In this document: positions 5,574 to 55,119 of the stretch, piece by piece | Position numbering within the stretch: the first letter of the stretch is position 1 | Layout: every line of letters starts with the position of its first letter | Source: Algoriphagus winogradskyi | GTDB lineage: Bacteria; Bacteroidota; Bacteroidia; Cytophagales; Cyclobacteriaceae | Reading direction: 5' to 3' | NCBI RefSeq assembly: GCF_900182815.1 | Contig: NZ_FXUA01000002.1 | Coordinates: 744,001-808,000 of the forward strand | Length of the DNA: 64,000 nt | Translations under genes and position numbers: made by a program | Notes under the pieces: generated by a model | Told to the model about the DNA's origin: nothing | Databases searched by the model: none | The model's input: only the letters and a program-made list of their open reading frames with translations

Positions 5574-8500
5574 AAAAGTCGAGATACAGGCCTTCCGTGC
5601 TTATGATAAAGCCGAAGACGGTACATTTGATTTTCAGCTGAATAACCAGCGCAATGCGGACTTCATTTCAATCTATGCTCCAAACGGATTCGGTAAGACC
5701 TCTTTTTACGACGCGGTAGAATGGGGATATACCAGCAATATCCACCGTTTCCTGAGAAAGCAGAAATTCAACCAGGAAAGCAGCAAGTCTCAAAAAAACA
5801 TTAACAGCGAGGAAGGTAGCCCTGAGCACAAAAGCAAGTACCAGATTCTGCGCAACCACAATGCCGACGATGCCACCCAAGGATATGTAAAGCTCTTTAC
5901 CACAAATTCTGATAAACCAACCGTCCGCAACATCCCCATACCCCGGAGTGGTATGGTCGATTATAAGTTCGACAGCAAGGAAACAGAAAACGATTTTTTC
6001 CAGAAAGTTATCCTTTCCCAGGAATGGATTGATGCATTTTTAAAAGAAGATGATGCAGCAGAACGTTACAAAACCTTTATTAGCTATTTTGGCAACCAGC
6101 AGCTCGATAAGTACTATACTTCGATAGTCAGCCTGATCAAAACCACAGATGCGAAGATCAAGCAGTTAACCACAGATCTTAAAGGTGTCCAAAAAGAAAT
6201 CCAGTTCAACGGCGACCATGAAATCCTGAAAAAGGTCAACGATAAAATCACCGGCCTTAGAAGCATTTATAGTGAGCTAACGCTGATCGATTCTGACTTT
6301 AGCGATAAAGATTTTGTGCACTATGATAGCCAGTTGATCGAATTACAGCACGCCCTAGTCTTCCAGCTCAACAAAAATAACGGCGTCCTGAATGTGATAA
6401 AACTTGCTTTTCAAGGTAACGAAGAGGTATTAGGCCTGAACCAATACGAGGCCCAGCAGGCAAGAATGCCGGAAGTACGAAAACTATACGAAACCTACAA
6501 ATCCCGCCTGAATAGTCTCGACGACTTGAGCAAATTGAATGACGAGCTGAACGTCCTGCTTGATCAGGTGGCAGAAATCCAGAAGAGCCAGGCAGAAGTA
6601 AAGGAAATCCAGCGCATTTTTCCTGGATACGTCCAGACCCAAAAAGAAATTGATGCAGAAAAAACCAATGCCCGAAATGCAGCGGATCAACGTGATAAGG
6701 CTGAGGCTTCGCTTGCTGAAGCGAATAATGCAATCCTAAAGGCTGCAGAAGCGGAAAACAATAAACTGAACCAGATTTCCGCGACTCTGAACCGAAAAAA
6801 AGATGCCCAGTCTATCGAGCAAAAAGTAAAACAGGATCAGTCAGAGGAAACTAAGCTGTTCAACCAAAAAAGCAATGAGCAGGACAAGTTAACGGAGATC
6901 GGTCAAAAAATCGTTACCACGCAGCAACACATTAAACGTGTCGAGGATAATTTAACCGGCCTTTCCATCGGAAAATACCCAAATACCGCGGATCAACAAT
7001 ACGCCAGTTTTGTAGAACGTATTGAAAAAGCCGAACAAGAGCAGAAACGAGACGATCAAATCCGCGCACAACTCATCAACCTGGACACGCAGATCCAAAG
7101 CAGGGAAGAATTCAACAGTGAAATTGAAAGACTGGTAGCCTTGGGATCACAGATCGTTAACAGAACCCAGACCAGCGAATGCCCGTTGTGCAACCATGAT
7201 TTCAAAACTTATTCTGATCTAGCCAGCAACATTGCCGGAAATACACTGCTAGCTAAAGACCTCCAGATAATGCTGGAACAGCGTACCATTCTTCAGCAGC
7301 AGCAAAACCAGACGCTCGAAACGATCAATCAGCTGCGTCAAGAAATGGAAGCTGATTTCAGGAATGAATTGGACGGCTTTGACGATAAACTGAAAAAACA
7401 GCTTGCCGAAGAGTCTTCGATGAAAAGAGACTTGGAAACTATCGATAGAGCTCTTGCGGAGATCAACCAGACCAAGCTTGATTTTAAAGGACTTTTAAAC
7501 AATAACACATACACTGACTACCTGTCCGAATTAGATCGCCAAATCGGACAACAGGAAAAAGAACTGACAACAGCCAAGGAAAATACGATTGAGGCTAAAG
7601 CCAAGGCAGACCTGGCCAGAGAAAAATTCGAAACCACAAAAAAACAGATCGAGCTCTTTGTAAGCCGCCAGGAAGAATTGGCCGAGCGGCAGGACTATCT
7701 CCGTGTACTGGAATATTCCTTAAAAAACCTAGAGCTAGGAACTCCAGACCCGGAAGAGTTAGAAGCCTTTTCAACAAAACTCGACCATGCAAAAGATGAT
7801 CTGGAAAAACAGCGAGCAGAAAAAGCTCTAATGGTAGCAGAAACCTCTGCACCCATCATTGGCATGAACCGGGAAGACGTGGACGCACAGGTGCGACAGG
7901 CAAGAAAATCTTTAAACCAGGCAGAAGAAGCCATTAGTTCCTTCGAATCCTTCCTAATTAGGGAATTCAGTTACTTTCCAGATGAACCAAATACTGCAAA
8001 AGATTTTCTTCTGGAATTCGACAGACGCCTGAAAAGCGATATAGAAAAAGACCAAAGGACACAGCTAGATCTCCAGGTGCTAAAAGAGCAGCTCAAAGCA
8101 GTATTGCCATATTTGAAATATCAGATGTCCGTACGGGAAGAGCGGGATCTCAGGGAACAGCTCGGATTTCTGAAAGATACCGTCAGAAAAAGGCTAAACA
8201 CCGAAAAGAATAAAGTAGCAACACACCTGGACAAAGAGATCAGTTCATTCTTCTACCAGGACCTGATCAACGACCTGTACGAAAAGATCGATCCGCATCC
8301 AACTTACCGCAAAATCCGCTTCCTGTGTGATTTTAAGGACGATAAGCCCAAGCTCAATGTTTGCGTAGTTGGAGATACCGGAGAAGAAATGCTCATCCCG
8401 AACCTCTATTTCAGTACCGCCCAGTTGAATATTCTCAGCCTGAGCATATTTTTAGCCAAAGCGCTAAACGTAACCGATAAGAGTGGCAAGTACGTGGACT

Positions 8501-8727
8501 GTATTTTTATCGATGATCCCATCCAGAGCATGGACAGCATTAATATTTTATCTACAATCGATTTGCTCCGAAGCCTGGTTCACAATAATAAAAAACAAAT
8601 CATTCTGTCAACACACGATGAGAATTTCCATAATCTATTGCAGAAAAAAATACCGACAAATCTCTTTGATTCCAAATTCATAGAACTAGAAACCTTCGGT
8701 AAGGTGAAACGAGATGAAATTTATTAG
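5563..8727 (+). CDS. Rad50/SMC-like ABC ATPase of an ABC-3C system
   Basis: 1054 residues. Walker A APNGFGKTS lies near residues 38-47. Very long coiled coils run from about 170 to 880, interrupted by a zinc-hook-like CPLC motif near 540. The C-terminal half-site has the signature-like STAQLNILSLSIF, Walker B CIFIDDPIQSMD near 979 and the switch histidine in STHDENF near 1018. This is the SMC/Rad50 architecture expected of a sensor that recognises nucleic-acid or nucleoprotein structures and licenses the effectors encoded upstream. Last gene of the operon; 11-nt overlap with the middle component. Confidence 0.85.
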   Translation: MKFKKVEIQAFRAYDKAEDGTFDFQLNNQRNADFISIYAPNGFGKTSFYDAVEWGYTSNIHRFLRKQKFNQESSKSQKNINSEEGSPEHKSKYQILRNHNADDATQGYVKLFTTNSDKPTVRNIPIPRSGMVDYKFDSKETENDFFQKVILSQEWIDAFLKEDDAAERYKTFISYFGNQQLDKYYTSIVSLIKTTDAKIKQLTTDLKGVQKEIQFNGDHEILKKVNDKITGLRSIYSELTLIDSDFSDKDFVHYDSQLIELQHALVFQLNKNNGVLNVIKLAFQGNEEVLGLNQYEAQQARMPEVRKLYETYKSRLNSLDDLSKLNDELNVLLDQVAEIQKSQAEVKEIQRIFPGYVQTQKEIDAEKTNARNAADQRDKAEASLAEANNAILKAAEAENNKLNQISATLNRKKDAQSIEQKVKQDQSEETKLFNQKSNEQDKLTEIGQKIVTTQQHIKRVEDNLTGLSIGKYPNTADQQYASFVERIEKAEQEQKRDDQIRAQLINLDTQIQSREEFNSEIERLVALGSQIVNRTQTSECPLCNHDFKTYSDLASNIAGNTLLAKDLQIMLEQRTILQQQQNQTLETINQLRQEMEADFRNELDGFDDKLKKQLAEESSMKRDLETIDRALAEINQTKLDFKGLLNNNTYTDYLSELDRQIGQQEKELTTAKENTIEAKAKADLAREKFETTKKQIELFVSRQEELAERQDYLRVLEYSLKNLELGTPDPEELEAFSTKLDHAKDDLEKQRAEKALMVAETSAPIIGMNREDVDAQVRQARKSLNQAEEAISSFESFLIREFSYFPDEPNTAKDFLLEFDRRLKSDIEKDQRTQLDLQVLKEQLKAVLPYLKYQMSVREERDLREQLGFLKDTVRKRLNTEKNKVATHLDKEISSFFYQDLINDLYEKIDPHPTYRKIRFLCDFKDDKPKLNVCVVGDTGEEMLIPNLYFSTAQLNILSLSIFLAKALNVTDKSGKYVDCIFIDDPIQSMDSINILSTIDLLRSLVHNNKKQIILSTHDENFHNLLQKKIPTNLFDSKFIELETFGKVKRDEIY

Positions 8728-10493: not shown

Positions 10494-11373
10494 AGTTGAA
10501 TATAAGTATTCCTCTATTTTGAGGTATTACAAAGAACTTGATTAATTGAGAAAGTGACACATAATGTCGGTAATGCAAGGAGGAGAGGTCGAAAAATTCT
10601 GTGCAATGCCGATTTTTGAAACCTCCTAATGATTTTTCCTAGGCGAAGAAAATGGGTCGAGGATTGAAGGAGTCAGATAAATAAGAGGATAGGAAAATCA
10701 ATCCCTTACTTAGGTTCTATTGACAAACGATATCAATAATGGTGAGAAAAATGAGCTAGTGATTCGTACACCTCGTACGCTTCGTACCTCTCGTACCATA
10801 CGAATTGTTCGAGGATTGAAATTCGAAATCATACAAATCTGTTAAAACCATAGTACCCAAAATTTGACTTACCGCGGAAAGAATCAAAAATGAATGTTCG
10901 ATTTTGGCAAAAGGTTAGCAGAAGTCTTTAGGTTTCCAGTCCTTATCACCAAAACGAAAAAAACCGTCCAACTTTCTAGCCTTTAGAATGGCTTAGGGAT
11001 CTTAGTTTTAGAAAGAATTCGATAGCATGATTGAAATAAGTTTAAATGAATTTGAAATTTTTTGACCAAAATGAACCTGTTCCCCTATTTGTCTCGCCTG
11101 AAATATAAGATTCAGTAAATCAACAATTTACAACAGTACTGCTCAAACTAATAAACAGGTGATCGTTCTGTGGTCAACTTTTTGGTTTTTTTAGGGATTT
11201 TGATCCAGCTTGTAATTTCAAATCGATTCCATTTGATTTAAATTGTCCCCAAATCTGTCCTACGATTTGTCCCGCTTTTTCCTTTTTTGGATCTCATAAC
11301 TTTATATTTAAAATGATTTAGCGGTTGGGAATTAGAATTTCTATGGGTTACGATTTCGACTTGACTGCTTTTT
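10494..11373. other. Non-coding region homologous to the integrase upstream region
   Basis: About 880 bases with no credible ORF. From 10763 on it parallels 16411-16925 in order: the 9-bp repeat array; GTTCGAGG then TGAAATT; AAAATGAA near TTCGATTT; AAATGAATTT; then AAATGAACCTGT with CCCC and TTTGTC; and finally TTGTCC-type 9-mers spaced 12 bp apart (11243, 11255, 11267). After that the integrase gene found in the other copy is missing. I read it as the footprint of a related, decayed mobile element. Confidence 0.6.
10763..10814 (+). repeat. 9-bp iteron-like array, copy 1
   Basis: Four tandem 9-mers of form YTCGTACNN (10763, 10772, 10781, 10790), then TACGAATTGTTCGAGG. The first unit and TACGAAT are complementary, so the array can close as a hairpin. 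Further copies are at 16411-16461 (same strand) and 20586-20636 (inverted). Confidence 0.75.
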
Positions 11374-12765
11374 TTAAGAATCCCATTTCATTTTCCAAGC
11401 AGTAAATTCGGAAGGTCTGATTCGGTAGCGGACAAAATTTCCTTCATGTAATCCCAAGAGTTCTGTTTCTACTACTTCGGAGAGCCTGGATTGGTCTGGT
11501 TCTGGTAATTTTTTGACTTCGGATTTTATTGCTTCGGATGCTGCTTCTTTATCCATTGCATTGCTTACAATTTGGCTGACGATCCCGCGTATTTCTTCTC
11601 GGTATTTTAAGCGAAAAGGATCCGGCTCGCCAAGAGATTGACGAATGGCTGCATACCTTAGGGCTGACCGCTCATAGGCCCACAAAAAAACATCCTTGAA
11701 TAATTCGATGCGGTTTAATTCATAAATGCCTAGCATTCCTTTGATATAGCTTTCTTCCGGTACGTCTATAAATGAAAGAGGAGCAAGGTTGTGTCGGTTC
11801 AAAGGAATATTGGCAGCCAATCTGGATACTCGCTTATTGACATCATCAAATGGTTGGAGATAGGGAAGCTGAACCAATACAAAAAAAGCCTGCTCAAATG
11901 GATTTTGGATTTGGCTTGCCTTTGCTAGTATTAGGTCAAAAGATTCTTCGATGAGTTGTGGAATTCCCAACGGAGTAAATACCGAATTGGTGATTCCCAC
12001 GCCAAATGTTCTAAGCCTGCCGGATGCAGCCGGATTTGGCAACAGGTTGTTTGAAAGCAGGGCATGGAGATTAAGAAAAGTGTAGCGATTGAAGCCCACC
12101 TCATCAGACGATTCTACCAAAAACTCGATAGCCTCCTTGTGATTGAGAATCATCTGGGTTTCCATCGGAGACTTGTTCGAGGGGGTTTTCCCGTTATGGA
12201 TTAACAGCTCTGTATCCAACAAGGAATAGGTGTTCCCTTCCAGTCTGCTTGAATTCCAAGAAAGGTCGATCAAAAGGCGATTTAATATTTCTCTGGCATA
12301 GGTCCCTGCTGGCTGTTCTCCATTCCTAGTATTTCCCCATTCAGCCAGTTTTTGTTTTTCTTCTTTGCTGAGAAAGCTGTCGATGTTGGGACGGTAATTT
12401 TCCAAGAAACTTCGTTCGTATCCGACAGGTTTCCTTTGTGCAACAAGACGTGAGACCAAGGCCCAAACGTCTTTGCCTTCTTGTGAAAGCGGAATGGTCG
12501 ATTGTAGCTCCTCTTCTGATTTTATCTTTCCAGAATCCTGAGTTTGTTCAGGGACATTTGTATAATACTTTGTTGATCGAGCTTCTCCTTTTATTAGAAT
12601 CAGATTCTTTTCTCTGAGGCTTTTTAGTCGTCTTTGAAGTGCTCTCTTTTCAATTTGAAATGGGAGCAACCTAAGAAGTTGTTCTATTCCTAAGCCATCA
12701 GATGATGATGCAATTATTTCTTTAATCAGTTGTAGCTCATCTCGATTTTCCATTTTCAATCCCAT
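11374..12765 (-). CDS. Fic-family protein with N-terminal winged helix
   Basis: About 463 residues. An N-terminal helix-turn-helix (about 1-60: ELQLIKEIIASSSDGLGIEQ onward) precedes a Fic domain. The inhibitory-helix motif SSRLEGN is present. The Fic motif reads LQPFDDVNKRVSRL, with Gln in place of the catalytic His and Val-Asn in place of Gly-Asn, so canonical AMPylation is doubtful. This variant looks coherent rather than decayed. I prefer the ATG at 12765 (or 12753) over one at 12819, because the latter would put the upstream TGACGC repeats inside the gene. Probably autoregulated through those repeats. Confidence 0.75.
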   Translation of the reverse strand: MGLKMENRDELQLIKEIIASSSDGLGIEQLLRLLPFQIEKRALQRRLKSLREKNLILIKGEARSTKYYTNVPEQTQDSGKIKSEEELQSTIPLSQEGKDVWALVSRLVAQRKPVGYERSFLENYRPNIDSFLSKEEKQKLAEWGNTRNGEQPAGTYAREILNRLLIDLSWNSSRLEGNTYSLLDTELLIHNGKTPSNKSPMETQMILNHKEAIEFLVESSDEVGFNRYTFLNLHALLSNNLLPNPAASGRLRTFGVGITNSVFTPLGIPQLIEESFDLILAKASQIQNPFEQAFFVLVQLPYLQPFDDVNKRVSRLAANIPLNRHNLAPLSFIDVPEESYIKGMLGIYELNRIELFKDVFLWAYERSALRYAAIRQSLGEPDPFRLKYREEIRGIVSQIVSNAMDKEAASEAIKSEVKKLPEPDQSRLSEVVETELLGLHEGNFVRYRIRPSEFTAWKMKWDS

Positions 12766-12792
12766 TTGTATCGCGACAATAATAGCATAAAA

Positions 12793-12849
12793 ATGACGCA
12801 ATAAAAAGAATCGTGTCACGATAATTGACGCAATATTTAAATCGCGTCA
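12793..12849. promoter_or_regulatory. TGACGCAAT operator-like repeats upstream of the Fic gene
   Basis: TTGACGCAAT (12825-12834) faces AATCGCGTCA (12840-12849) as an inverted repeat, and a further direct ATGACGCAATA lies at 12793-12803. Placed just upstream of the Fic gene start. Its N-terminal winged helix is the obvious candidate binder (inference). Confidence 0.5.
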
Positions 12850-12957
12850 TTCTTTGGAAAGAATGTCGATTCTCTATTTCTCCGCTTTTGTCGAGTCGTT
12901 TTGAAGAATTGTCTCTGAGTTTAATCCCTAAGTTATAATATAAGAAGGTGGAATTGA

Positions 12958-15138
12958 TCAGATTCTAAAACCAAGGGAAATAACCAAACTTCTTCCATCA
13001 GACGACCATATGCCTGGTCCCGGATACATTTGAGGTCTTTTTGTGAAATAGGAGTTGTCGAAAATATTCTGAAAACTTGCCCGCAAAGTCAGGTTTTCAT
13101 AGGTATAAATTCCCTGAAGATCCCAAATGTGATAAGAAGGAACCAAACCCACTGCACCTGATGGAGGTGGACTTTTTGTATTGAGTGCGTCGGAAAAAGA
13201 TTCGCTTACAAACTGATGCTGTAGAGCCAATTGTAAAGAACCATAGGAAGCGGTTAGCCCGTTTCTGCTGATCCACTCGGGAACAGCCTCGACATGATTT
13301 CCCTCGATTTCTTCATTTCCTTCCGAACCAGCCACAAACCCGTTTAGATATCTTGCCCGCATCCAACTTGATGAGGTATAGAATGAGAGTGCAAAGCGAT
13401 CTTTTTTCAAGAATTCCCAATCCCAAAGGAGCTCAACCCCGGCCGTTCCGCTGTCTCCGATATTGCTTTTTTGAATCAGGGTATTATCATCTTGCTCCAC
13501 TAAAATACTGCCGATGCGTTTGCCTATAAATGTGTAAAACAGGGTAGCGTTTAAATGCATCGATTCCTTGGGGCTGAGTTCCCAGCCTATTTCCGAATTG
13601 TATCCAAAGCTGTGGGTAAGGTTTGGGTTGATTATAGTTAGAGGATTTCCGGGAATTATATCCTGAAACAGAACCGGTCTGTTGGCTTGGGAAATTCCTG
13701 CATAGAGGCGATTGGAAGGCGAAAACTGATAATTGGCGTTGATCCCCAACGTCACAAAATCATATTCAATTTCCTGAGGCACTTGCTCTGCTTCCACATA
13801 ACTGATAGTTCCGCTCATTGCTGAACTTCCATTCTCTATCCGTAATCCAGGTGAAATTGAAAATCGGTCATTTAAGTGAAATTGGTTTTCCAGTGATGCT
13901 GCAATGCTTTGACTTTTCAAGTTGATATCTCTGGGAAAATCTCCTACAACAGACAGGTCGTAGTCTGTGCCAGTCGTCCCTTTACCCCTTTGCCTGCGAT
14001 CAAAGGAATTATTGAAATATCGAACTGAAATTGAGAGATCATTTTTAACAGAACCTAATGTATATCCATGTAAAATTCTAGCCTCAAAAGTCCGGGTATG
14101 GTAATTATCAATATCCACATTTCTAGGAGCGTACTCAGAAGTTGCACTATTGATGGTGTCGGGCACGTTTGCAAGTGCATCAAAAGTGACTGAACTTCTC
14201 TGACCAAATATCCCGCTTCCCACCAAACTGAAACTTGTATTAGCTGCCAATCTGCCTTCCAGTGTCAATACCGGTACCCAGATTTCAGGACTGTAATAAT
14301 TGCGTGACCGGGTGGCTTGTGTTGGATCCTCCTTAAACTGGGCGTCAGTGAGTGGACCCGGAATTCGGTAAAGAAAGATACTCCGACTCAGTTCTGCTTT
14401 AGCTTTCAGGCGGTCGTTAATCTGATAGGAAATTTCCGCATGCTGGGCATCAGATTCGGATTTTCCGCCATCCCGATATCCGTTGGAATTCCTCTTTTGA
14501 TAGTATCCAAAGTAGCTGAACTTGCCAATCGTGCCTCCCACCGAAGTGTAGTTGGACAACAGTCCAAAAGACCCTACTGAACTGATGTTTTCAAGACTGA
14601 ACTTTTTAATTGGATCGGGCTTTTTGAGCACATAATTCAGCATCCCACCAAACTGCTGACCATACTGTAGCGCTGCAGTTCCACGAATCAGCTCGATCCG
14701 TTCCACTGCTTCCATGGGCATGGAATAGTGGCTGGCAGGATATCCATAGATATCTGTATTGATCATGACCCCATTTTGCCTGACATTGAATTCCCAACTG
14801 CGATGCCCATCCAATCCCCTCACAGAGACGTTGATTTGGTTTCCGGTACCATCCATGTCATAAATGAATGCTGAGGGAATTTTTGCAAACAGGCTTCGGC
14901 CTGTCTTTTCTGCAAGATTCGTAGCTAATCCACTCAGGGAAATCACTTCCGATTTCCTTCCCCCGACTACCATCAATCCATGCGTCGACGGAAGACTGGT
15001 GACAGGGTTTTGAAGTCGAAAATTCTGGATTTTAATCTCTTCGAGAGTAAGTGTTTTAACAGTGTCTTGCTGCGCAAATGCATGGTTTGATAGCCAGTAA
15101 AAGCCCATAAGCAAGTAGATATAATACTTGTATTTCAT
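12958..15138 (-). CDS. TonB-dependent outer-membrane receptor
   Basis: 726 residues with a Sec signal peptide ending in HAFAQQ, a plug domain (VSVRGLDGHRSWEFNV, RIELIRGTAALQYG, GGMLNYVLKK around 105-180) and about 22 beta strands ending in the aromatic-type terminal strand SLVISLGFRI. The plug resembles FecA/siderophore receptors rather than SusC: there is no carboxypeptidase-like N-terminal domain and no SusD partner. It imports an unidentified ligand, probably a ferric chelate, using TonB. The hypothetical gene at 15194 lies 55 nt upstream on the same strand. Confidence 0.88.
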   Translation of the reverse strand: MKYKYYIYLLMGFYWLSNHAFAQQDTVKTLTLEEIKIQNFRLQNPVTSLPSTHGLMVVGGRKSEVISLSGLATNLAEKTGRSLFAKIPSAFIYDMDGTGNQINVSVRGLDGHRSWEFNVRQNGVMINTDIYGYPASHYSMPMEAVERIELIRGTAALQYGQQFGGMLNYVLKKPDPIKKFSLENISSVGSFGLLSNYTSVGGTIGKFSYFGYYQKRNSNGYRDGGKSESDAQHAEISYQINDRLKAKAELSRSIFLYRIPGPLTDAQFKEDPTQATRSRNYYSPEIWVPVLTLEGRLAANTSFSLVGSGIFGQRSSVTFDALANVPDTINSATSEYAPRNVDIDNYHTRTFEARILHGYTLGSVKNDLSISVRYFNNSFDRRQRGKGTTGTDYDLSVVGDFPRDINLKSQSIAASLENQFHLNDRFSISPGLRIENGSSAMSGTISYVEAEQVPQEIEYDFVTLGINANYQFSPSNRLYAGISQANRPVLFQDIIPGNPLTIINPNLTHSFGYNSEIGWELSPKESMHLNATLFYTFIGKRIGSILVEQDDNTLIQKSNIGDSGTAGVELLWDWEFLKKDRFALSFYTSSSWMRARYLNGFVAGSEGNEEIEGNHVEAVPEWISRNGLTASYGSLQLALQHQFVSESFSDALNTKSPPPSGAVGLVPSYHIWDLQGIYTYENLTLRASFQNIFDNSYFTKRPQMYPGPGIWSSDGRSLVISLGFRI

Positions 15139-15193
15139 AGAAAGAAGTCATAATTAATGGGGAAATTCAGGGATTATTTCCCTGAAAAAAGAT

Positions 15194-15757
15194 TCAGGAC
15201 AACTGGAGTCCTTGGGGAGGAAGCAGTATGATATCCTTGATTCCCATCGGAATGGTGATTAAAAAAGGAGAAGAATGCCGGATTAATATTTCGGAAAGTT
15301 TTGGTGCAAAGGAGAAATCGTGAATGCGTAGGACAAAGTCTTTTACGAAAGATTTTAAAAGTACTTTCTGTAAAGGCGGACCCTCAAAATCTCCCTGATC
15401 AGATGCGAGAGAAACTATCCAGAGTTTCACCTGTTCATTAAGTTTCGTTTGGAGCTCATCCTTCACCACGACTACCTCTAGGTGATCTTCAAAATACCGT
15501 TGTTTTATTACTCGGTTCATTTTTCCCTCAATTTCCATTTGGAAATTCACCGTTTGAAAGTTTTCCTGATTCTGTCCATACGGCATGGCAAAAGGAATTC
15601 GGATCAGTTTACCCTCAAGAAAGTCTTCGTCATTTTCCCAAATCTGATTTTCCCAATGTTGATGTATTGCCATAGGCATAAGGAACTGCACCGCAAAAAA
15701 TCCCAGGTGATACAGTCCAAAGCACGTAAGGAGAAAAATGGCAGCTGATTTTCTCAT
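15194..15757 (-). CDS. Hypothetical protein with N-terminal membrane anchor
   Basis: 187 residues. One hydrophobic segment near the N-terminus (AAIFLLTCFGLYHLGFFAVQFL) acts as an anchor or uncleaved signal; the remainder is soluble and probably periplasmic. I do not recognise the family. It is first in a two-gene minus-strand unit with the TonB receptor, so a role in the same uptake process is plausible but unproven. Confidence 0.7.
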   Translation of the reverse strand: MRKSAAIFLLTCFGLYHLGFFAVQFLMPMAIHQHWENQIWENDEDFLEGKLIRIPFAMPYGQNQENFQTVNFQMEIEGKMNRVIKQRYFEDHLEVVVVKDELQTKLNEQVKLWIVSLASDQGDFEGPPLQKVLLKSFVKDFVLRIHDFSFAPKLSEILIRHSSPFLITIPMGIKDIILLPPQGLQLS

Positions 15758-16410
15758 GATTAAAGGCTAAAGTAAAGTTAAAAAAGAATGGAAATGAACT
15801 TAATATCCCAAGGATAAAAAATAATGATTTAACGCCATTGGAATTGATGGGTGGAAAATTATGAGGTTGACATTAAATTGAGTTTAGTAGAATTGTCTTT
15901 TAAAAATTGAACAGTTTACATGTTCCCTCTTATAGAGAAATCCTTTTTTTGTTCTTTCTCCGTGGCATCGATCTAAATTAGCCAACTGGAAATGATTAAT
16001 TTTTCCGGTTGGATTGGGCTATCGGATCAAATCATTTGAAAATTGAGTTTGACTTTTCAACTGAGACACTAAAAGACATAGATAAGTAACCCAATCGTGT
16101 CAAGGAAGGCCATCCACTGTTGATGCTCAGTAACGAATTATAAACTGATCTATTCCAAGATAGTAGAAGAAATAAAGATTTTGGATATTAAAATTTAATT
16201 TAGAGGAACCTTTCTTGAAAAGGGAGAGCAGCCACTTTTCATAAAAATCCTGCTTCATAGCCTTTTCATGAATTATACCTCAATGGAAACTTTGGAATTT
16301 ACTTTGTGAACACAGATTGTGCACAAAGTGATTGGTGAAGCGCAAAAACAATCAGTGGTGTTTTTGCCACAAAGAAAGATTCTCAAACAGCAAAAAGAAA
16401 AAAGGCTTAA

Positions 16411-16461
16411 TTCGTACGGTTCGTACACTTCGCACACCTCGTACAGTACGAATTATTCGAG
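16411..16461 (+). repeat. 9-bp iteron-like array, copy 2
   Basis: Units at 16411, 16420, 16429 and 16438 (TTCGTACGG, TTCGTACAC, TTCGCACAC, CTCGTACAG) followed by TACGAATTATTCGAG. Same strand as copy 1 and inverted relative to copy 3. Confidence 0.8.
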
Positions 16462-16697
16462 GGCTGAAATTAAAATCAATTCAAATGAATTTAAATTTCG
16501 AATAAAAAATGAAGATTCGATTTCTGATTAGCCTAGCTGAAGCCTTGGACGTTTTTTGTTCTTAACATCAAAAAGAAAAAAATATCATTCAAAACTGAAC
16601 CCCCTCATACAGACCAAAAACCCAGATTTTGCAAAAAATCCGAGATTTAGACAAAAATCAATTCAAATGAATTTAATTTTTTTGGTACAAAATGAAC

Positions 16698-16718
16698 CTG
16701 TCCCCCGATTTGTCCTCT
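16698..16718 (+). repeat. Pair of TGTCC repeats, 12 bp apart
   Basis: CTGTCCCCC (16698) and TTGTCCTCT (16710) are related to the four-unit array 160 bp downstream and keep the same 12-bp spacing. The homologous decayed region has a parallel pair near 11078-11096. Candidate arm-type integrase sites. Confidence 0.45.
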
Positions 16719-16777
16719 TTAAGTCGTAAACTATTAGTAAACAGTAATTTAAAATAGTCCTGTTCCCGCTACTTGGT

Positions 16778-16815
16778 AACTCCGGACAATGTAAAAATTG
16801 TTCGGAGTTTTTTGT
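16778..16815 (+). terminator. Strong hairpin with T-run upstream of the integrase
   Basis: AACTCCGGACAAT (16778-16790) pairs with ATTGTTCGGAGTT (16797-16809), 13 bp with one G.T, around a 6-nt loop, and is followed by TTTTTGTTTTT. It has the form of a Rho-independent terminator insulating int. An attachment core with inverted repeats is the alternative. Confidence 0.6.
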
Positions 16816-16872
16816 TTTTCAGGGGTTTAGCATTATTTCGAATCTATTTGATTCTGTTAAATTCGGATGATT

Positions 16873-16920
16873 TTGTCCCAGTTTTTGTCCCAGATATTGT
16901 CCCAGTTTTTGTCCCAGTTT
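16873..16920 (+). repeat. Four 12-bp direct repeats (TTGTCCCAG + 3)
   Basis: TTGTCCCAG at 16873, 16885, 16897 and 16909, separated by TTT, ATA and TTT, ending 45 bp before the integrase ATG. The 12-bp period and conserved 9-mer suggest protein-binding sites, for example arm-type sites for the integrase N-terminal domain or an int operator. Confidence 0.75.
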
Positions 16921-16965
16921 TTTATAATCTTTTTGCTTCGCTCTTTATTGTGACTATTTTGGGGC

Positions 16966-18222
16966 ATGATTGACATCAAAATTTCTGCTGTGTTGAATCC
17001 TAAAGCGATTCCCTCTTCAGGTGGACAGGGGATTTATTTGTGCATAAATTGGAAAGTTCGACATTACATTAATCTCAAACTTGAGAAAATTCCTAAAAAT
17101 GCTTGGTCAGGCAAACCAACCAAATGGGTGAATAGCCAATATCAGTATGCTGAGTTTCACAATAGGGTAATCGCTCGGGAGATTCATAGACTCAAAGGGA
17201 TTATCCAGGATTTTTATAAACGAAACGAAGTACTGACTGCGGAAAAGTTGAAGAATATTTATCTGGTAAAATATCAAGGGAAAAAGTTGAAGGGTGTGAA
17301 TGGTGTTCATGCTCCTGGTGCTAGTGATAAAGTTTCCGAATTCATTGATTATTCGATCAACTTTGGAGCTACTTCCAAAAAGGTAGCTGGAACAAAGAAA
17401 GTATATGTAACTCTGAGAAAACTTATTGAATCTTACAAAAAGACCTCTGTCATGGCAGATGTTGACGAAAACTATGTGTTGGAGTTTGTGGATTTCATGA
17501 GAAGTGATCAGACAGAAATCAATTCAGATACCACGTTGGCGAAGTATGTAGATCGCTTGAAGGTTATCTATCGAGAATACTGTGACCAGTATGCAATCCC
17601 GTTTAGAAAGAGAATTTTTGAAGGAATTGATATAGATTCCAATAAAAGACCTGAAAAGATCATCTATGTGAATGACGAGCAGTATAAGAAGCTGTTAGAG
17701 TTGAAATTCGACCGAAAAGAAAGAAGGCTTGAAATCACCAGAGATATTTTCATTTTGCTGTGTAATACCGCTCTCTATTACAATGATTTGATCGCAATTA
17801 GTAATGAAAAGGGATTTGACCGTAATTTGCTGAAGGAAAATCCCAACCACCTTGTGCTTCAGGGTGAGCGAAAGAAAAACGGTGAGGAATTCTAGATCCC
17901 TTTGAATGACACTGCTAAGAAGATCGTCAAAAAGTATTCTGTCGAGGATGATGAAATGATTTTCCCAAAGAGTGTTGCAATATCTGAACAGAAGTTCAAC
18001 CAGCATTTAAAAGTCCTGGCAGAAATGATTGGCTTTACAGATGTGCTTTCCAATAAAGTAGGAAGGAAGACCTTTGGTACCTGGACTGATCGATTGGGAA
18101 TGGATGATAATGATATTAGGATGATTTTTGGTCACTCGCCGGGATCGGTTTTAAAAAAGTATTATACTGAAAGAAGGACGGTTGAATCCTACAACAGAAT
18201 TCTTTCTTTGATTCAAAGGTGA
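16966..18222 (+). pseudogene. int: Tyrosine integrase interrupted by in-frame TAG
   Basis: The reading frame continues without shift from 16966 to 18222 (418 codons) except for a TAG at 17893-17895, after ...KNGEEF and before IPLNDTAKK. Before the stop are an N-terminal arm-binding domain (about 1-100), a SAM-like core-binding domain (about 110-210) and catalytic box I (CNTALYYNDL). After it are box II (GRKTFGTW), GHSPGSVLKKYY and the catalytic Tyr. The first catalytic Arg is absent, as in several Bacteroidota integrases such as IntDOT. The result is a recent nonsense mutation, a sequencing error or readthrough. Without readthrough the protein lacks its nucleophile and the element could not excise itself. 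Confidence 0.85.
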
Positions 18223-18224
18223 TT

Positions 18225-18905
18225 ATGCAAAAGAAGAGCAAGCTGGCTATCAAACATTATCATGGTAATGAGCTGGAAAAGATAGGCAAATCTGCCACCG
18301 GATTTCCGCTGTACGTCATGGTTCGATACAAGAATGTCAAAACCAAATTTGCTTCTAGAATCGGGATGAAATTTGTAAAGGATCATGATGGTGATCTTAG
18401 TGCTTTAGATCGAGAAGTATCCAGAATCATTGAGGAGGAAGTTAAGTATATTGAGATGCTTCGGGATTACTTTGAGGATTCTTTGGAAGTAGAATTTACG
18501 CCGTCTATGATAGTGAATGAAGCCTATGAAAAGGTCACCTTGGAAAGGGTCGTTGACTATTTTGATTCCATTTTTGAGGATAGAGAGGTAAAGGAGATCC
18601 TTTGGAATATCAATCAGGATTTAGCTGAGTTGTATGAAGTGGCTGGTCCCGTTCGGTTCTTGTCTGCTTTACGTCATTTGGATTCGGAGCTTTTTAGTAG
18701 GATTATGAATATCCCAGAGGTTAAGGAGGTCTTTGACTATTATTTGGAGTACAAGTCCCTTAATTGGCCAGAGGTGACTAGGCTGCAAGTCAGGATGGCA
18801 GATGAAGAAGGAGAAAGAGTTTCTTCTAAATTGAGAAAATGGCTAGATGAGAAATTTGATGCAGAAATGCACCATTTCTATCATTTGAAGCCTATAAATA
18901 TTTAA
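18225..18905 (+). CDS. Hypothetical integrase-linked protein (226 aa)
   Basis: I do not recognise this family. The N-terminal 60 residues (GFPLYVMVRYKNVKTKFASRIGMKF) resemble the beta-rich arm-binding module of Bacteroidota integrases; the rest is helical and acidic. An AAAGG ribosome-binding site lies 6 nt before the ATG at 18225; a GTG at 18219 overlapping the integrase stop is the alternative start. It directly follows int and ends in a terminator, so it probably assists recombination or regulates it. Confidence 0.65.
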   Translation: MQKKSKLAIKHYHGNELEKIGKSATGFPLYVMVRYKNVKTKFASRIGMKFVKDHDGDLSALDREVSRIIEEEVKYIEMLRDYFEDSLEVEFTPSMIVNEAYEKVTLERVVDYFDSIFEDREVKEILWNINQDLAELYEVAGPVRFLSALRHLDSELFSRIMNIPEVKEVFDYYLEYKSLNWPEVTRLQVRMADEEGERVSSKLRKWLDEKFDAEMHHFYHLKPINI

Positions 18906-18912
18906 ATGTTAA

Positions 18913-18947
18913 AAAATCGGACACTAGTGACCGATTTTATATTTTTT
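18913..18947 (+). terminator. Rho-independent terminator
   Basis: AAAATCGG (18913-18920) pairs with CCGATTTT (18931-18938), with CACTAGTG self-complementary inside, followed by a T-rich run. It ends the int unit. Confidence 0.75.
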
Positions 18948-18950
18948 GCT

Positions 18951-18975
18951 TATATTTGAGTAAATCAAACTCAAA
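18951..18975 (+). promoter_or_regulatory. Promoter with operator for the excisionase-like gene
   Basis: TATATTTG (18951-18958) matches the Bacteroidota -7 consensus TAnnTTTG. Overlapping it is the perfect inverted repeat TTTGAGT-aaatcaa-ACTCAAA (18955-18975), ending 5 nt before the ATG at 18981. A repressor bound here would block both initiation and the start codon region. Confidence 0.55.
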
Positions 18976-18980
18976 TCAAG

Positions 18981-19289
18981 ATGAATCAAGACACTTTTAT
19001 TCCGTTTTCAGCTGTTAGCCAAAAATGGCTTGAAGAGAAGTTCAACAAGCTGGAAGAGAAAATTGCAAATATGAGTTCGGGGACTTCCGATAAGTCCATA
19101 AAAAACGAATGGCTCTCACTTCAGGAATTCATGGAGGCAACAGGTGTGAAATCCCATTACTCCATTTCCAAAATGGAGTCCGTTTCTGAATCTAGGGGAG
19201 AGGAATTCCGCTCCATGTTCAGAGGGAAAAGACGCTTTATCCACCAAAGAGAGGTGGAAAGATTTTATGCTGGAGAGTTTGAAAATTAA
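18981..19289 (+). CDS. xis: Excisionase-like helix-turn-helix protein
   Basis: 102 residues. An N-terminal coiled-coil-like helix (EEKFNKLEEKIANM) precedes a MerR/excisionase-type DNA-binding domain (LSLQEFMEATGVKS, then KRRFIHQREVERFYAG). Small HTH proteins at this position in Bacteroidota ICEs act as recombination directionality factors or regulate excision genes. It has its own promoter/operator and its own terminator, so it is a single-gene unit. Confidence 0.65.
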   Translation: MNQDTFIPFSAVSQKWLEEKFNKLEEKIANMSSGTSDKSIKNEWLSLQEFMEATGVKSHYSISKMESVSESRGEEFRSMFRGKRRFIHQREVERFYAGEFEN

Positions 19290-19319
19290 AAAGGAAAGGA
19301 CAGCCATCCTTTCCTTTTG
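19290..19319 (+). terminator. Rho-independent terminator
   Basis: AAAGGAAAGGA pairs with TCCTTTCCTTTT around CAGCCA, immediately after the excisionase-like gene's stop. Confidence 0.75.
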
Positions 19320-19545
19320 TTGAAAAAGCCAGTGGGCAGTTCCAAGTTGTCTTTTAACCTTCTGTTATTAAAAGTGTGTACTAAATTGGTAAAACTTTCA
19401 ATCAAAGTCAACTTAGGCAAGACTGATCTCCCAACTTTTTCATCTCTCCCGACTCAGCACCAACTCTTGGTGATCAACTGATCTAATCAATTTATTCTTA
19501 AACAATTAATTGCAGCATTGGATAATAATGTTGCCTGGAATTTTA

Positions 19546-20580
19546 ATGCCAAAAAGTATGACTTTATTAAATCAAGAATCTAATTCTAATGCACCCAGAA
19601 ATGGTGAATTTTTAACCATCAAATCCGCTAACCAGTGGATTGATGAGGCCAAAAGTAAACCAATCCCCAAAAAGATATTTGGCCCATTTTGGTATGAAGA
19701 AGAGCTATGTATCCTCTTTGCCGATACGAATCAGGGTAAATCTCTGCTTGCTGTTCAGATCATCGACAGTGTGACAAAAGGAACTTCGACGCTAGGCCTG
19801 GAAATGGAGCTTCCTAAGTCCAAGGTAATTTACTTTGACCTGGAATTGACGGCCAAGCAATTTGAAATGCGATATGCACAACACGATAAGGATAAAGACA
19901 TCCTGTTTGACCATTTCGAATTCAGTGAACAATTTTTAAGAGCTGAAATCAATCCCTATGGCTATGATGTATCGGTAGAAGATTACGAATCCTTTCTCTT
20001 TCGTGAGATTGAAAGCCAAACCACTGAGTCCAAGGCAAAAATTCTGGTGATCGATAATCTGTCCTGTGTCATTTCTGATAATGAAAAAGCAAAGAATACT
20101 ACTCCGTTTTTGATTCGGCTTAACAACCTAAAGAAGATGTATGGCTGGTCGATCTTATTGATAGCACATACTCCCAAGAGGAATTTATTTGCTCCCATCA
20201 GTAGAAATGACATTCAGGGAAGCAAGAGCTTTATCAATCTTATCGATTCTTGCTTCGCAGTAGGGGAGAGTCAAAAAGATCCATCGATTAAATACCTGAA
20301 ACAAATCAAAGTCCGGTATGGAGCATTTCAATTTCCTTCTGAGAATGTAGTGGTATGCAAAATCGGTAAGGAGACTAATTTCAGCTCCTTCAAATTTTTA
20401 GAATATGGAAAAGAGTCAGAGCATCTCAAGCACTTCGATGCAGCTGATAAGGTCCAGGTAAAGAATAAAGCTTTTGAACTGAAAAAGAGTGGCTATTCGA
20501 ATGTGAAAATCGCTCTGGAATTAGGAGTGTCAGAAGGAGCCGTGCGAAAGTGGCTGAAACAGGCTGAAATCGAGGATTAG
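19546..20580 (+). CDS. RepA-like AAA (RecA-fold) helicase
   Basis: About 344 residues. RecA-fold ATPase of the AAA_25/RepA helicase group: Walker A FADTNQGKSLLA (about 60-71), FDLELTAKQ, Walker B ILVIDNLS (about 165-172) and a polar IAHTPKRN motif. The last 40 residues form a helix-turn-helix (YSNVKIALELGVSEGAVRKW). Probably the replicative helicase of the element in its circular form. The start is uncertain: ATGs at 19528, 19546 and 19558 are in frame. Followed by the inverted 9-bp array and the primase gene, a plasmid-like replication module. Confidence 0.75.
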   Translation: MPKSMTLLNQESNSNAPRNGEFLTIKSANQWIDEAKSKPIPKKIFGPFWYEEELCILFADTNQGKSLLAVQIIDSVTKGTSTLGLEMELPKSKVIYFDLELTAKQFEMRYAQHDKDKDILFDHFEFSEQFLRAEINPYGYDVSVEDYESFLFREIESQTTESKAKILVIDNLSCVISDNEKAKNTTPFLIRLNNLKKMYGWSILLIAHTPKRNLFAPISRNDIQGSKSFINLIDSCFAVGESQKDPSIKYLKQIKVRYGAFQFPSENVVVCKIGKETNFSSFKFLEYGKESEHLKHFDAADKVQVKNKAFELKKSGYSNVKIALELGVSEGAVRKWLKQAEIED

Positions 20581-20585
20581 TCGGA

Positions 20586-20636
20586 CTCGAACGAATCGTA
20601 CTGTACGAGGGGTACGAGGTGTACGAACCGTACGAA
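20586..20636 (-). repeat. 9-bp iteron-like array, copy 3 (inverted)
   Basis: On the minus strand: TTCGTACGG, TTCGTACAC, CTCGTACCC, CTCGTACAG, then TACGATTCGTTCGAG. It lies between the helicase and primase genes, where a replication origin would be plausible. Confidence 0.8.
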
Positions 20637-20779: not shown

Positions 20780-21802
20780 ATGAATTATACTGATTTAAAA
20801 CATGAAGCGAGTCGAATCAAAAGGGACTTCTCTATAATAGATTATTTCCAGGGCTTAGTGAGTGTTGGAGCACTGAAATATGAAGGTATGCAAGGGAAGG
20901 AGCATTTCTTTGGGTTTCTCTCACAGCGGACTGGTTCCATCGCAGTGGATCATAGAACCAATGTGTGGTATGACCATGCTGCAGGAAGAGGAGGGGATGT
21001 TTTAGAAGCTGTCCAGGTTTTCGAAAATAAAACCTTTGCCCAGTCAGTTGAGCAACTTTCTGATTTTCCAACAGAGAGAACCGTGATACCAACGAATAAG
21101 CCAAAGGCCGCACCGAAGATTAAGATTGAAAGTGTAAAGAGGGTTTCTCATCCGGCTTTGGTGAATTATATACGAACCAGGGGGCTAGAGCCTAATGAGA
21201 TTTCGGATTTCGCTAAGGAAGTACATTGGGGAAATAAAGGGAGGAAGTACTTCGCTGTTGGTTTTCCCAACGAGTCTGGTGGATGGGTGCTTAGATCTTC
21301 CATTTTCAAAGGGAATATTCTAGGAGGAGGTATTTCTATCCAGGTACTTGGAACTCCTGAAAGAATAAAAATCTTCGAAGGCTGGTTTGACTTTCTGAGT
21401 TATCTGAAGTTGTCAGGAGCAACCGATTTAAAAGCAATTATTTTGAACAGTACTGCCAATCTGAAATTAAGCCTGATCCTGGATGTTTTGGCAGAATGTG
21501 AGGTGGTAGATCTTTACCTGGATAACGATGCTACCGGTGATAAGTACACGGGCTTTTTCATGAAAGCAGCCCAGCTTTACCACTATTGTCGAAGGAATTC
21601 AATTTCTACTGATTGGGATTTGAAGATGCTAAAGGGTTGCCGTGATAAATTTGAGAAGCTCATTTCAACTCTCAAAATCAGCTCTAGAGATGTTGAAGGA
21701 ATATGGAGATTTCAAACTGAAGTGACCGATCAAAGGTATCGATATAAGGGATTTGAGGATTTTAATGAGCTTTTGAAGCCTCATGTTGTCACTAGAAATT
21801 AG
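20780..21802 (+). CDS. CHC2/Toprim primase-like protein
   Basis: 340 residues. The N-terminal domain resembles the DnaG zinc-binding region in fold order (FFGFLSQRTGSIAVDHRTNV, WYDHAAGRGGDVLEAV) but the usual Cys ligands are not obvious. A Toprim domain follows: IFEGWFDFLSYL (catalytic Glu) near 200 and DLYLDNDATGDKYT (DxD) near 250. Mobilizable Bacteroidota elements carry such primases to prime replication of the transferred strand. Paired with the upstream helicase; followed by a terminator. Confidence 0.8.
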   Translation: MNYTDLKHEASRIKRDFSIIDYFQGLVSVGALKYEGMQGKEHFFGFLSQRTGSIAVDHRTNVWYDHAAGRGGDVLEAVQVFENKTFAQSVEQLSDFPTERTVIPTNKPKAAPKIKIESVKRVSHPALVNYIRTRGLEPNEISDFAKEVHWGNKGRKYFAVGFPNESGGWVLRSSIFKGNILGGGISIQVLGTPERIKIFEGWFDFLSYLKLSGATDLKAIILNSTANLKLSLILDVLAECEVVDLYLDNDATGDKYTGFFMKAAQLYHYCRRNSISTDWDLKMLKGCRDKFEKLISTLKISSRDVEGIWRFQTEVTDQRYRYKGFEDFNELLKPHVVTRN

Positions 21803-22153: not shown

Positions 22154-25100
22154 ATGACAGGAATTGAAAACATAGATTTTGGTAAGCTGAAACCTTATGA
22201 TGGAAAAGTAACCCAGTGCTTTGAACAGCTTTGTTATCAAATTGCATTAAAAGAATATGGCCATCTTGGAAAATTCACTCCTATCGATGGTAGCGGTGGT
22301 GATGGAGGCGTTGAATTCTACTTGAAACACAATAATGGGGAGACTTGGGGTTGGCAATGTAAATTTTTTGGTGACAATGGCAGATTGAATGTAAGTTCAA
22401 GAGATACAGCAATTGAAAATTCCTTAGAAACAGCTTGTAGAAATCATATGAATTTGACTAAGTGGTTTCTCTGTTTAAAAACAGACTTAACTACTGATAG
22501 TCTTTCAAGTAAAGGAAAGTTTAGTAAGGGAGAGCGCAGCTGGTTCAATAACGAACTTCCTAAGAAGATTCCCACTTCCAGAATAATTAATCTTGAACTT
22601 TGGGGTAAATCGGACTTTGTATCATTTCTGAATAGTGCAAAACTTCTTGGGATTAGAAGTTTCTTTTTTGGTGAACTTGAATTTAACGATGGATGGTTCA
22701 ATCGTAGATTTGAAGAAAACTACCAAAAGGTTAAGGACAAATTCGATCCAGATCTTCACAGTATAGATCAATACACTCAAACAATCATTGACTTCTCTCT
22801 TCTTAATACGGGTTATTTAAAACACTTAGAGGGTTTAAAAAAGGAGCTTCTCGATAAAGCCAATCAAATAAAATCTGCCATTGTAGATTTCCGTGACGAA
22901 AAAAATATCTCCAAAAAGGAGGAAAGTATCAGAGGTGCTTACCTTATCGTTTGTCAAGATTTTCAAAAGCATATTTCGTTAGTGTTTGAAAAGATCGACT
23001 CTTTAAAGAATTGTTTTGTTTCCTTTAAAGGAACAGAACTTTCATCTTTTCAAATAGAAGATTTGAGAAAGGACTTTTTCAAATACCTCGATAAGATTGA
23101 TTATTCATCCTTTGAAGAAAAGTCAAGGGCAGCAAGAGATGCATATTCAATTTCCTATCTCATATCCGAATTTGGTGAAATTTATGAACGTTTCTTCAGG
23201 AATTACTTTCACCAGTCTCAAAGGACTATTCATTTTATCTCAGACGCAGGTAAAGGAAAAACTCATCTTTCGTGTGACATCGCATTTAAGAGAATTCAGC
23301 AGAATGAACCAGCTATTTTTCTCACAGCTGACAAGTTTTCAGGGGAAAAGTCTATTTCTGAGGCGATAAGAAAAATCCTTGACGTTGAGAATAAATTCAC
23401 AGAAGATGAATTCCTTGATGCTCTGGATATTTACGGTTCGATAGTTAAGAAAAAAGTTCCAATAATCATTGATGGACTGAATGAAACAATAGAAAACAGG
23501 TACTTTTCCCCTATTTGGAAAAACCACCTTAGCAGTTTTGAAACTAAAACTAATGAACGTGACAATTTAGTACTAATTACTACCTGCCGTAATTCTTACA
23601 AGAATAGGGTTTGGGCTGATTCGAATGCCAACTTTCACTACTTGAATGGATTTGACGACTATGAAACTATTCAGGAGGCGGTCAACAAATATTTCAGCAA
23701 ATACCTGTTAAAAGCAGACCTATTTTTTGCACGATTAGAAAAATTTCGAGAGCCAATTTTTTTAAAAATTTTCTGTGAAATTAAAAATCCGAATTGGAGA
23801 AGTGGAGACCCTGTAGAAGTCAATATTGAGGAGGAGTCTACCTATGATATCTTTAAAGAATATCTGGATCAAGTCAATCGTAGGGTAACAAATAGCAACC
23901 ATCTTTTAAGGTCTAATGAACCTTTCATTAATAACAGCCTATCAGTTCTATCTGAGTTCTTATGGGAAAATGATCTACGGGAAATTCCAATAGATAAGTT
24001 CTACACCTTAATTGATGGTGATAAAGAGTATGACAAAGACAACTCAAAAGCGGATATATTAATCAGTGAGGGATTGGTAATGACCCGCGATATAAGAGAG
24101 AAAATAGAATTTGTCAGTTTCACCTACGATATGCTCGCAGGGTTCCTAATTGGTGTTAGATTAATAGAGCGTACTAATAATTTGAAGTATTTCACAAGCA
24201 CAGAATTCATTAACAAGATAATTCGAGAGAAAGGTCAGCATCCCTTGTATGAAGATGTACTATATGCATTGTGCATGTTATTGCCACAGGTGAAAAATGT
24301 TGCAATGCACGAATTGCTTAAAACCAATTGGAAATTACGATTTACCAAAAAGTCAATTTTTAAGAAGCTGCCAAAGTTTGTCAAGAAACAATTTAAAGAG
24401 AGTATTTCATTCTCAAATTACTGCTTTAGTCAGTCAGTTGTTACACTGTTTAGCTTGCCAGCACAATTTGTTCAAGATACCGACCGAGAATTAGTAAGGT
24501 CACTATTCAACCGTTCAATTGAAAATCATAAACCACTACTTGACCTTTTCTTTAAAACAGTCAGTGATACTAAACACCCTTTAAACTCTAACTTTTTTTC
24601 TCAGCTTCTTGCCTCTTTAGAAATGAATGCAAGAGATCTAAGTTGGACAGAGTACATTAGAAAAAGAGCCTATGATTTAGAAGAGTTTGTTGAAGAATTT
24701 GAGCAACAATGTAAATTGAATAATAGAGAGTCGGAGATTTTAATTAGGAAACAACACCTTCTTGCAAAATTCATCTTATGGTTTCTGACGAGTACAAACC
24801 GTAACCTTCGAGATAAGTCCACAAGAGCACTTTATTACTATGGGAGGAAATTTCCTTCTTCGTTTTCTAAGCTAGTTTTTGAATCATTGAAAATTAATGA
24901 CCCTTATGTATGGGAGCGTAGTTTAGCATGTTTATATGGGGTTTCAATGGGAAATCATAACTCCATAAGTTCGGATAAGTTTCGAAAAGAAACTCTTCCT
25001 GAAATTGGGAAATCGTTACATGATCTAATGTTCAAAAATGACGCTCCATTTTCAACAACCCATATTTTAGCCAGAGATTACGCCAGAAGAACAATTGAAA

Positions 25101-39820: not shown

Positions 39821-39822
39821 GC

Positions 39823-42059: not shown

Positions 42060-42065
42060 TCCGCC

Positions 42066-42902: not shown

Positions 42903-42905
42903 AAA

Positions 42906-54562: not shown

Positions 54563-54576
54563 TTTCCCCTCTTTTT
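54548..54576 (+). terminator. Terminator overlapping the ardC copy 2 stop codon
   Basis: GAGGGG (54548-54553) pairs with CCCCTC (54566-54571), then T(5). The TAA is in the loop, as in copy 1. Confidence 0.6.
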
Positions 54577-54633
54577 CTTATGCTTCGGTTTTTACTAACT
54601 TAACTTTACTTAGGTCAAATCACTTAAACCAAT

Positions 54634-55016: not shown

Positions 55017-55119
55017 AATCAGATGGTTTACTTGATGGTCTATAATACTAGTTTACGATTAATTTTCACAGAGAGTTCTTAAAAATGTAAATAAGTAAAG
55101 ATGTTTTTATATAAAAATA

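Follow-up and report, generated by a model that had tools for sequence, protein, structure and literature searches.

The question raised by this stretch of the Algoriphagus winogradskyi genome (4.97 Mb) is what three copies of a short repeat array do there, one of them lying inverted between a helicase gene and a primase gene. The stretch, referred to below as the window, comprises 64,000 nucleotides (C2:744001-808000) from a stack of integrative and conjugative elements (ICEs). The arrays had been described in an earlier note as iteron-like sites of a plasmid-type origin. The reading favoured here, at a probability of about 0.7 and from sequence comparison, is that they are iterons bound by the C-terminal helix-turn-helix (HTH) of the adjacent helicase, and that helicase, array and primase would form the replicon of the excised element.

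Arrays in the window and the host genome

Each array consisted of four direct 9-bp YTCGTACNN units followed by two inverted units (TACGAATTGTTCGAGG, TACGAATTATTCGAGG; in copy 3, TACGATTCGTTCGAG). One unit of copy 2 was degenerate (TTCGCAC). The arrays and the genes beside copy 3 are as follows.

10763-10814, plus strand: array copy 1, right-end (E) array of the upstream ICE (pattern and right-end alignment)
16411-16462, plus strand: array copy 2, right-end (E) array of the fic element (pattern and right-end alignment)
About 20586-20636, minus strand: array copy 3, helicase-primase (H) array of the window's ICE
19510-20580, plus strand: RepA/T7-like helicase with C-terminal HTH of class I (SEGAVRKWLK); Pfam AAA_25
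20440-20574, plus strand: three C-terminal helices of the helicase (residues 311-355), the proposed array-binding HTH
20780-21802, plus strand: Toprim primase (Toprim_2 above cut-off, DnaG zinc-finger match below cut-off)

A two-unit pattern with at most one mismatch gave nine matches in the window, all inside the three arrays, and none in 100 dinucleotide shuffles, which bore out the three 9-bp arrays, one inverted, that the earlier note had placed here. The arrays are confirmed as real, correctly placed and far from chance. Spread of the array across the host chromosome was checked with a three-unit pattern at up to two mismatches. Five arrays were found (C2:673249 (-), 754763 (+), 760411 (+), 764603 (-) and 834734 (+)), all within the ICE stack, between 673 and 835 kb of one contig.

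Copies 2 and 3 had been taken as inverted repeats flanking int, xis and helicase. They are inverted repeats (53 nt, 89% complementary, 4124 nt apart), but they belong to different integrated elements: between copy 2 and int lies the attachment core at 16761, although the excised ICE circle would bring its own right-end array to the position that copy 2 has here. The iteron idea as a whole was largely right but incomplete, as copies 1 and 2 mark the right ends of adjoining elements, of which one has no integrase.

Helicase tails and array motifs

The helicase was modelled with AlphaFold from 76 sequences (pLDDT 79.5, pTM 0.75) as a RecA-like core with a three-helix tail; a first model (7 sequences, pLDDT 52.8) and its structure matches were not used. 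In a structure comparison that hardly probed the tail, the core matched T7 gp4 (Z 20.4), KaiC (20.1) and RSF1010 RepA (Z 20.0) in a tie. The RepA structures 1nlf, 1olo and 1g8y scored Z 19.9-20.0, 1nlf with a root-mean-square deviation of 2.4 over 198 residues.

Relatives, mostly from Bacteroidota, were collected using a profile of seven helicases, and the best 80 loci of 115 matches were kept. Trees and the class table were built on 76 helicases, the window's and 75 from these loci. Five loci were left out: L077 is broken by stops and has a class I HTH and array, L096 has a class I array and an HTH with an in-frame stop, L124 runs into a contig end, the GTTCCA-type array of L127 lies within the gene, and L133 has an odd C-terminus, with no array found. 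A non-redundant set at <85% ATPase identity held 39 helicases. Five HTH-to-iteron classes and several singletons have been recognised so far:

Class I: tail RKW, array TCGTAC
Class II: tail VNKY, array GTTCAC
Class III: tail MKVSR, MxVGR or RIVNK, array GTAACA
Class IV: tail EGTVR[NIY], array TCGTAA behind an open reading frame (ORF) of 61-69 amino acids in 10/10 loci, first scored as array-less
Class V: tail KSTVNR, array GTCCCA, in Tn4555-like Bacteroides records (L148 being what we take to be a Tn4555-like element)

HTH class equalled array class in 72 of the 76 helicases and in 35 of the 39 non-redundant ones, where the maximum over 10,000 label shuffles was 19. Arrays were called in 2 of 1345 background windows, and none of the 39 was found with the array of another class. 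The four non-matching cases were L090, whose contig ends 25 bp past the stop, L105 and L136, in which variant units stayed below the threshold, and L123, which has an unclassed HTH and no clear array. This covariation supports the earlier proposal that the sites beside the RepA-like helicase are iteron-like, with the HTH as their likely binder. Class I helicases sharing 43-99% identity with that of the window had their array at most 60 bp from the helicase stop; those outside the close clade (43-50% identical) had the TCGTAC array behind the stop, mostly as three forward and three inverted units. Unit spacing was 9 bp in most arrays and 8-11 bp in some.

Tail and array appear to have changed together. 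The ATPases of L087 and L101 are 83% identical, yet their tails and arrays are of class I and class III, respectively. HTH class changes 16 times on the best ATPase tree, where two class I members, L082 and L089, are placed with support next to L080 and L081 of class II; array class changes 7 times on the HTH tree, a count based on a different label set because class IV was there counted as array-less. An xis-like protein was considered as binder and rejected. The L084 protein (class I array) shares 67% identity with its counterpart in L103 (class III) and 65% with the one in L080 (class II); since such similar proteins accompany three different motifs, the xis-like protein does not set the motif.

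It had also been noted that an array can close as a hairpin. Such a fold can be drawn, but selected folding is unsupported. In small sets (6, 7, 6 and 13 arrays), the likeness of facing units within versus between loci was 0.745 vs 0.784 for class I, 0.792 vs 0.803 for class II and 0.829 vs 0.836 for class III, and facing-unit matches in right-end arrays numbered 148 of 208 vs 148.3 between loci. Because facing spacers show no compensatory pairing beyond chance, the arrays appear to be double-stranded protein sites rather than selected hairpins; the preferred reading is that each array is a row of such sites for, presumably, the helicase tail.

Whole-genome searches with three-unit patterns outside Algoriphagus gave mostly the helicase array alone, counts of single arrays being a lower bound because in L113 and L115 these patterns overlooked a second one. 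Four loci, L092, L113, L115 and L121, have another array of matching class 3.7-5.2 kb upstream, beside int in the three examined. In L152, which comes from the L092 genome, an array is followed by int, orf, xis, helicase, a further array and primase, the arrangement predicted for the Algoriphagus circle. A weak upstream cluster in L111 was judged to be chance on inspection of its sequence.

Several further repeats were observed at these loci. In L127, a Pyrinomonadaceae metagenome-assembled genome, GGAAC/GTTCC units, three forward and three inverted, occupy the last 85 bases of the helicase gene. A Butyricimonas plasmid record carries two tandem class V arrays (L150:6005-6083 and 6232-6300), one of which lies within the helicase gene at its 3' end. 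Five class IV loci (L093, L097, L125, L130 and L137) have a second repeat upstream of the helicase, about 1.1-1.4 kb before its stop, with a 10-bp period, 4-8 copies and letters that differ per locus. L114 has further class III clusters behind the helicase. In a Flavobacterium element, a 208-amino-acid protein without a Pfam match lies beside the second array (L153:10546-11172); we take its HNHF motif to be reminiscent of HUH Rep proteins and relaxases.

The element stack at tRNA-Met and its Algoriphagus relatives

The elements are stacked at a tRNA-Met gene (L011:5357-5430), inside which the first ICE starts; two genes with GTPase domains beside it are presumably der and era. The gene order of this upstream ICE is attachment (att) core, integrase, orf228, orf102, helicase, array and primase. 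The first part of the window is taken to be its right end, closing with copy 1 and, 377 bp further on, a decayed core; its putative extent is drawn from its two ends, which lie on either side of C2:683001-744000. The remaining features of the window are listed below.

11140-11151, plus strand: decayed attachment core where the upstream ICE meets the fic element (right-end alignment, position counted)
11152-16772, no strand assigned: fic element, no integrase hit; layout as in L049, L055 and L048, with copy 2 at its right end
11374-12819, minus strand: Fic protein of the fic element
12958-15138, minus strand: TonB receptor of the fic element
15194-15757, minus strand: orf187 of the fic element
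16761-16772, plus strand: attachment core TGTTCCCGCTAC, intact, 3' end of tRNA-Met and left end of the window's ICE
16869-16916, plus strand: 12-bp TTTTGTCCCAGT-like repeats, putative integrase arm-type sites distinct from the arrays
16966-18222, plus strand: tyrosine integrase, as two ORFs in one frame (16966-17895 and 17902-18222) split by an in-frame stop
18219-18905, plus strand: orf228, conserved in the ICE family
18981-19289, plus strand: orf102, excisionase-like by position only; no Pfam match
29768-31087, plus strand: relaxase of the ICE, MobA/VirD2 type; the nearest NCBIfam family is MobB, matched below cut-off
33406-44903, plus strand: conjugation genes, with a TraG-like ATPase (33406-35913), TraM (40797-42059) and coupling protein (42906-44903)

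The features of a Bacteroidota ICE were all present: integrase (interrupted), tRNA att site, relaxase, coupling protein and Tra genes. The array at C2:834734, which is followed by a core and by DNA resembling the start of int by eye (no tblastn match), is taken with this core as the right end of the window's ICE. By computation, the excised circle would have two arrays about 4 kb from each other, flanking a segment with attP, int, orf228, orf102 and helicase. Probable integrase arm sites (TGAACCTGTCCCC..TTTGTCC) were also seen at the right ends (11067-11093 and 16688-16714); the GTCCCA core of the arm-like repeats resembles the class V iteron, possibly by chance.

Among the matches listed, the helicase (E up to 1e-60) was present in 19 of 72 Algoriphagus genomes and the array pattern in 31, including all 19 with the helicase, in agreement with the proposed pairing of array and element helicase. 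At 17 of 22 close helicase loci an array of opposite orientation was found by eye on the same contig, the nearest 50-125 kb away among the matches listed. G009 had same-orientation arrays too, at least 434 kb from the helicase array on one contig, again among the matches listed. From the Algoriphagus loci fetched, 23 non-helicase arrays were taken; the alignment held 14 with a tRNA-Met core, together with copy 1 and its decayed core, and those of L032, L036, L043, L051, L054 and L057 and one each in L046 and L048 stayed outside it. In 13 of the 14 aligned ends the array was 337-380 bp inward of the right attachment core. In L055 the distance was 168 bp, the middle of the end being missing and array, arm-like repeats and core being kept.

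In L049 (9106-11424) and L055 (7110-9350), cores 2.2 kb apart enclose a fic gene and an array, with nothing else recognised; L048 (8948-16269) has a 7.2-kb version between its cores. The integrase query gave no match in L048, L049 or L055. Four integrase-less elements were compared with the window by blastn; beyond the fic region, the ends and the arrays, the sole match was a 43-bp stretch of L055 at 55086-55128. Because blastn matches little else, the array is, at that sensitivity, the one non-att, non-coding site clearly common to these elements and the ICE. A copied origin of transfer (oriT) was considered and rejected, as blastn against the window gave no such match, though a short oriT could escape. 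It is possible that the integrase-less elements are satellites which would use ICE integrase and helicase in trans.

The stack also carries cargo. Behind the primase, 22154-26497 encodes a 1447-amino-acid protein resembling the anti-phage protein Avs2 (NCBIfam E 8.7e-111, below cut-off). Left of copy 1, ABC-three-component-like defence genes (CTD4, SMC-like ATPase) occupy 3701-8727. ArdC antirestriction genes with their flanks (403-2249 and 53638-55021) are repeated 52.8-53.2 kb apart at 76-82%, and are perhaps cargo ends of two successive ICEs.

The proposed replicon, its rivals and known systems

From the anatomy and positions of the arrays, the matching of HTH and array classes, the lack of compensatory pairing and the presence of arrays in integrase-less elements, we infer physical binding, helicase loading, replication and use in trans as follows. 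The helicase would bind the array behind its own gene through the C-terminal HTH, its ring would load itself at or beside the array, and the neighbouring primase would start synthesis of the excised element. Algoriphagus ICEs carry another array of that class, turned the opposite way and about 350 bp inward of the right attachment site; it may be a second loading or looping site. Integrase-less elements would keep attachment ends, array and cargo, and depend on the ICE for integrase and helicase.

A number of points weigh against this reading. No melting region was identified, and the position between helicase and primase would equally suit an operator. The array pattern was matched, among the matches listed, in 12 of 53 Algoriphagus genomes without the helicase; three of the 12 had one 2-mismatch match only, and of five examined, G016, G018 and G035 showed the fic/att layout, G017 had the array near a tRNA-Ser gene, and G031 was the fifth. 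Outside Algoriphagus a distant second array was seen in just four loci. The integrase of the window's ICE is interrupted, and this ICE may therefore depend on a neighbour for excision. L123 (unclassed HTH) and L133 have an HTH and no clear array near the helicase. Among six weaker relatives outside the count, L142 fits class III; repeats of other kinds occur in L143, L144 and L145, the case of L141 is weak, and L146 is without HTH and array. The strongly supported branches of the ATPase tree alone force just 1-2 changes per class. The classes were, moreover, defined after the arrays had been seen, the sole later test being a set of 28 loci on viral contigs, scanned with slightly widened patterns and with class IV absent. 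The outcome of that test speaks for the reading: 11 loci were classed and 10 matched (class II 5/5, class III 3/3, class V 2/2). The eleventh, L162, has a class I tail and no score by pattern, with a variant CGTAC array on reading. The 17 unclassed viral loci included class III arrays (L161, L163, L165), GTTCAA (L166), GAAACA/TGTTTC repeats (L167) and an ambiguous case (L168); the 11 relatives L171-L181, ten of them on contigs >100 kb, gave no HTH pattern match and no array, again in favour of the reading.

An operator is the rival to which we give most weight, and it is still unlikely. The helicase or another element protein would bind the arrays and control transcription of primase and, in the circle, of int, with no origin function. 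Its case is the H array between helicase and primase genes, the second array 17 bp upstream of int in L152, and the fact that iteron proteins often autoregulate. It accords poorly with arrays that end elements without integrase hit (L048, L049, L055) and without helicase hit, with the class V array that overlaps the 3' end of the helicase gene, and with the short ORF that intervenes in class IV; operator and origin function could also coexist. Somewhat less probable again is that the arrays are accessory sites of an excision or integration complex, gathering int, xis and helicase near att. The steady distance of the E arrays from the right core (L055 apart) would fit this, whereas separate arm-like repeats already flank the cores, arrays also occur within about 400 bp of tRNA-Ser genes (L043, L051, L054), the helicase-primase gap is the only array place found in most non-Algoriphagus loci, and the motif does not follow the xis-like proteins.

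A single-strand hairpin signal, whether a priming site like RSF1010 ssi, an oriT or an RNA attenuator, is very improbable. The inverted units can fold, and the arrays of one ICE are oppositely oriented, like ssiA and ssiB of RSF1010; facing units were nevertheless no more alike within a locus than between loci, a result from small sets in which the units themselves might be stems. That several copies occur in one genome might suggest a REP-like chromosomal repeat family unrelated to the elements, a reading given almost no weight in view of the confinement of all five arrays to the ICE stack and their class matching with the helicase.

The replicon proposed here resembles several known ones in part. 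It shares with RSF1010 and IncQ plasmids a RepA-type ATPase fold (tied with T7 gp4 and KaiC) and an element-encoded helicase and primase. In RSF1010 the iterons have a protein of their own, RepC, and the primase is of a different kind, whereas the helicase described here carries the HTH as a fused domain and the adjacent primase is of the Toprim type, not the RepB' type. In the alpha protein of P4, a phage satellite, primase and helicase are fused, the origin-binding domain lies at the helicase C-terminus, and two cis sites, ori and crr, lie a few kb apart; by this description the two array sites are possible counterparts of ori/crr looping or loading. No match to a Rep_3 initiator was found among the int-to-primase ORFs of the window.

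In SaPI Rep (Staphylococcus aureus pathogenicity islands) and SCCmec Cch2, according to the available part of PMC7581432, a C-terminal domain recognises iterons just downstream of the gene, and binding of Cch2 is lost on removal of the direct repeats and kept on removal of the inverted repeats. Origins of phage-inducible chromosomal islands (PICIs) have two sets of iterons in the available part of PMC6092414. As far as these excerpts describe them, the likeness lies in an initiator helicase, short iterons directly 3' of its gene and a primase nearby; the SaPI/PICI sets flank a long AT-rich stretch, whereas here two opposed unit sets are separated by a few to about 14 bp. The ATPase also differs, being RecA-like of the RepA/T7 type and not DUF927 or Primase_Cterm/D5 (a Pfam scan of the window helicase at E 1e-3 gave AAA_25 and neither of these), as do the Toprim primase and the carrier, a conjugative element with relaxase and conjugation genes. 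Salmonella genomic island 1 (SGI1) is likewise an integrated element with iterons 3' of its initiator gene that replicates after excision, but its RepA is of the IncN2/N3 type, with 16-bp repeats and DnaA boxes, and no helicase fusion is described in the available part of PMC7826253. Like elements of the NBU1/Tn4555/CTnDOT type, L148 and L150 have the order xis-like gene, helicase, primase and mobilisation protein, with class V arrays; for such elements no iteron or origin is described in the part of PMC5704250 at hand.

The replicon logic is known and its parts differ from the compared cases in the RepA/T7-like helicase with its own HTH, the Toprim primase and the conjugative element. We hold it slightly better than an even chance that this is an undescribed family of self-loading replicons in Bacteroidota, in which HTH exchange has repeatedly been matched by iteron replacement, giving an HTH-to-iteron code, and whose satellites carry only att ends and the array of the helper. 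The arrays were undescribed in titles and abstracts found on Bacteroidota elements, which is weak evidence given partial journal coverage. Maintenance of excised integrative and mobilizable elements was called unexplored in a 2017 review, in its available part (PMC5704250). The array just behind the helicase gene is a candidate origin for many Bacteroidota elements, including Bacteroides records that bear resistance genes. Natural pairs of HTH and array would allow binding specificity and incompatibility to be predicted from sequence, and the array is suggested as the handle by which small integrase-less elements use their helpers.

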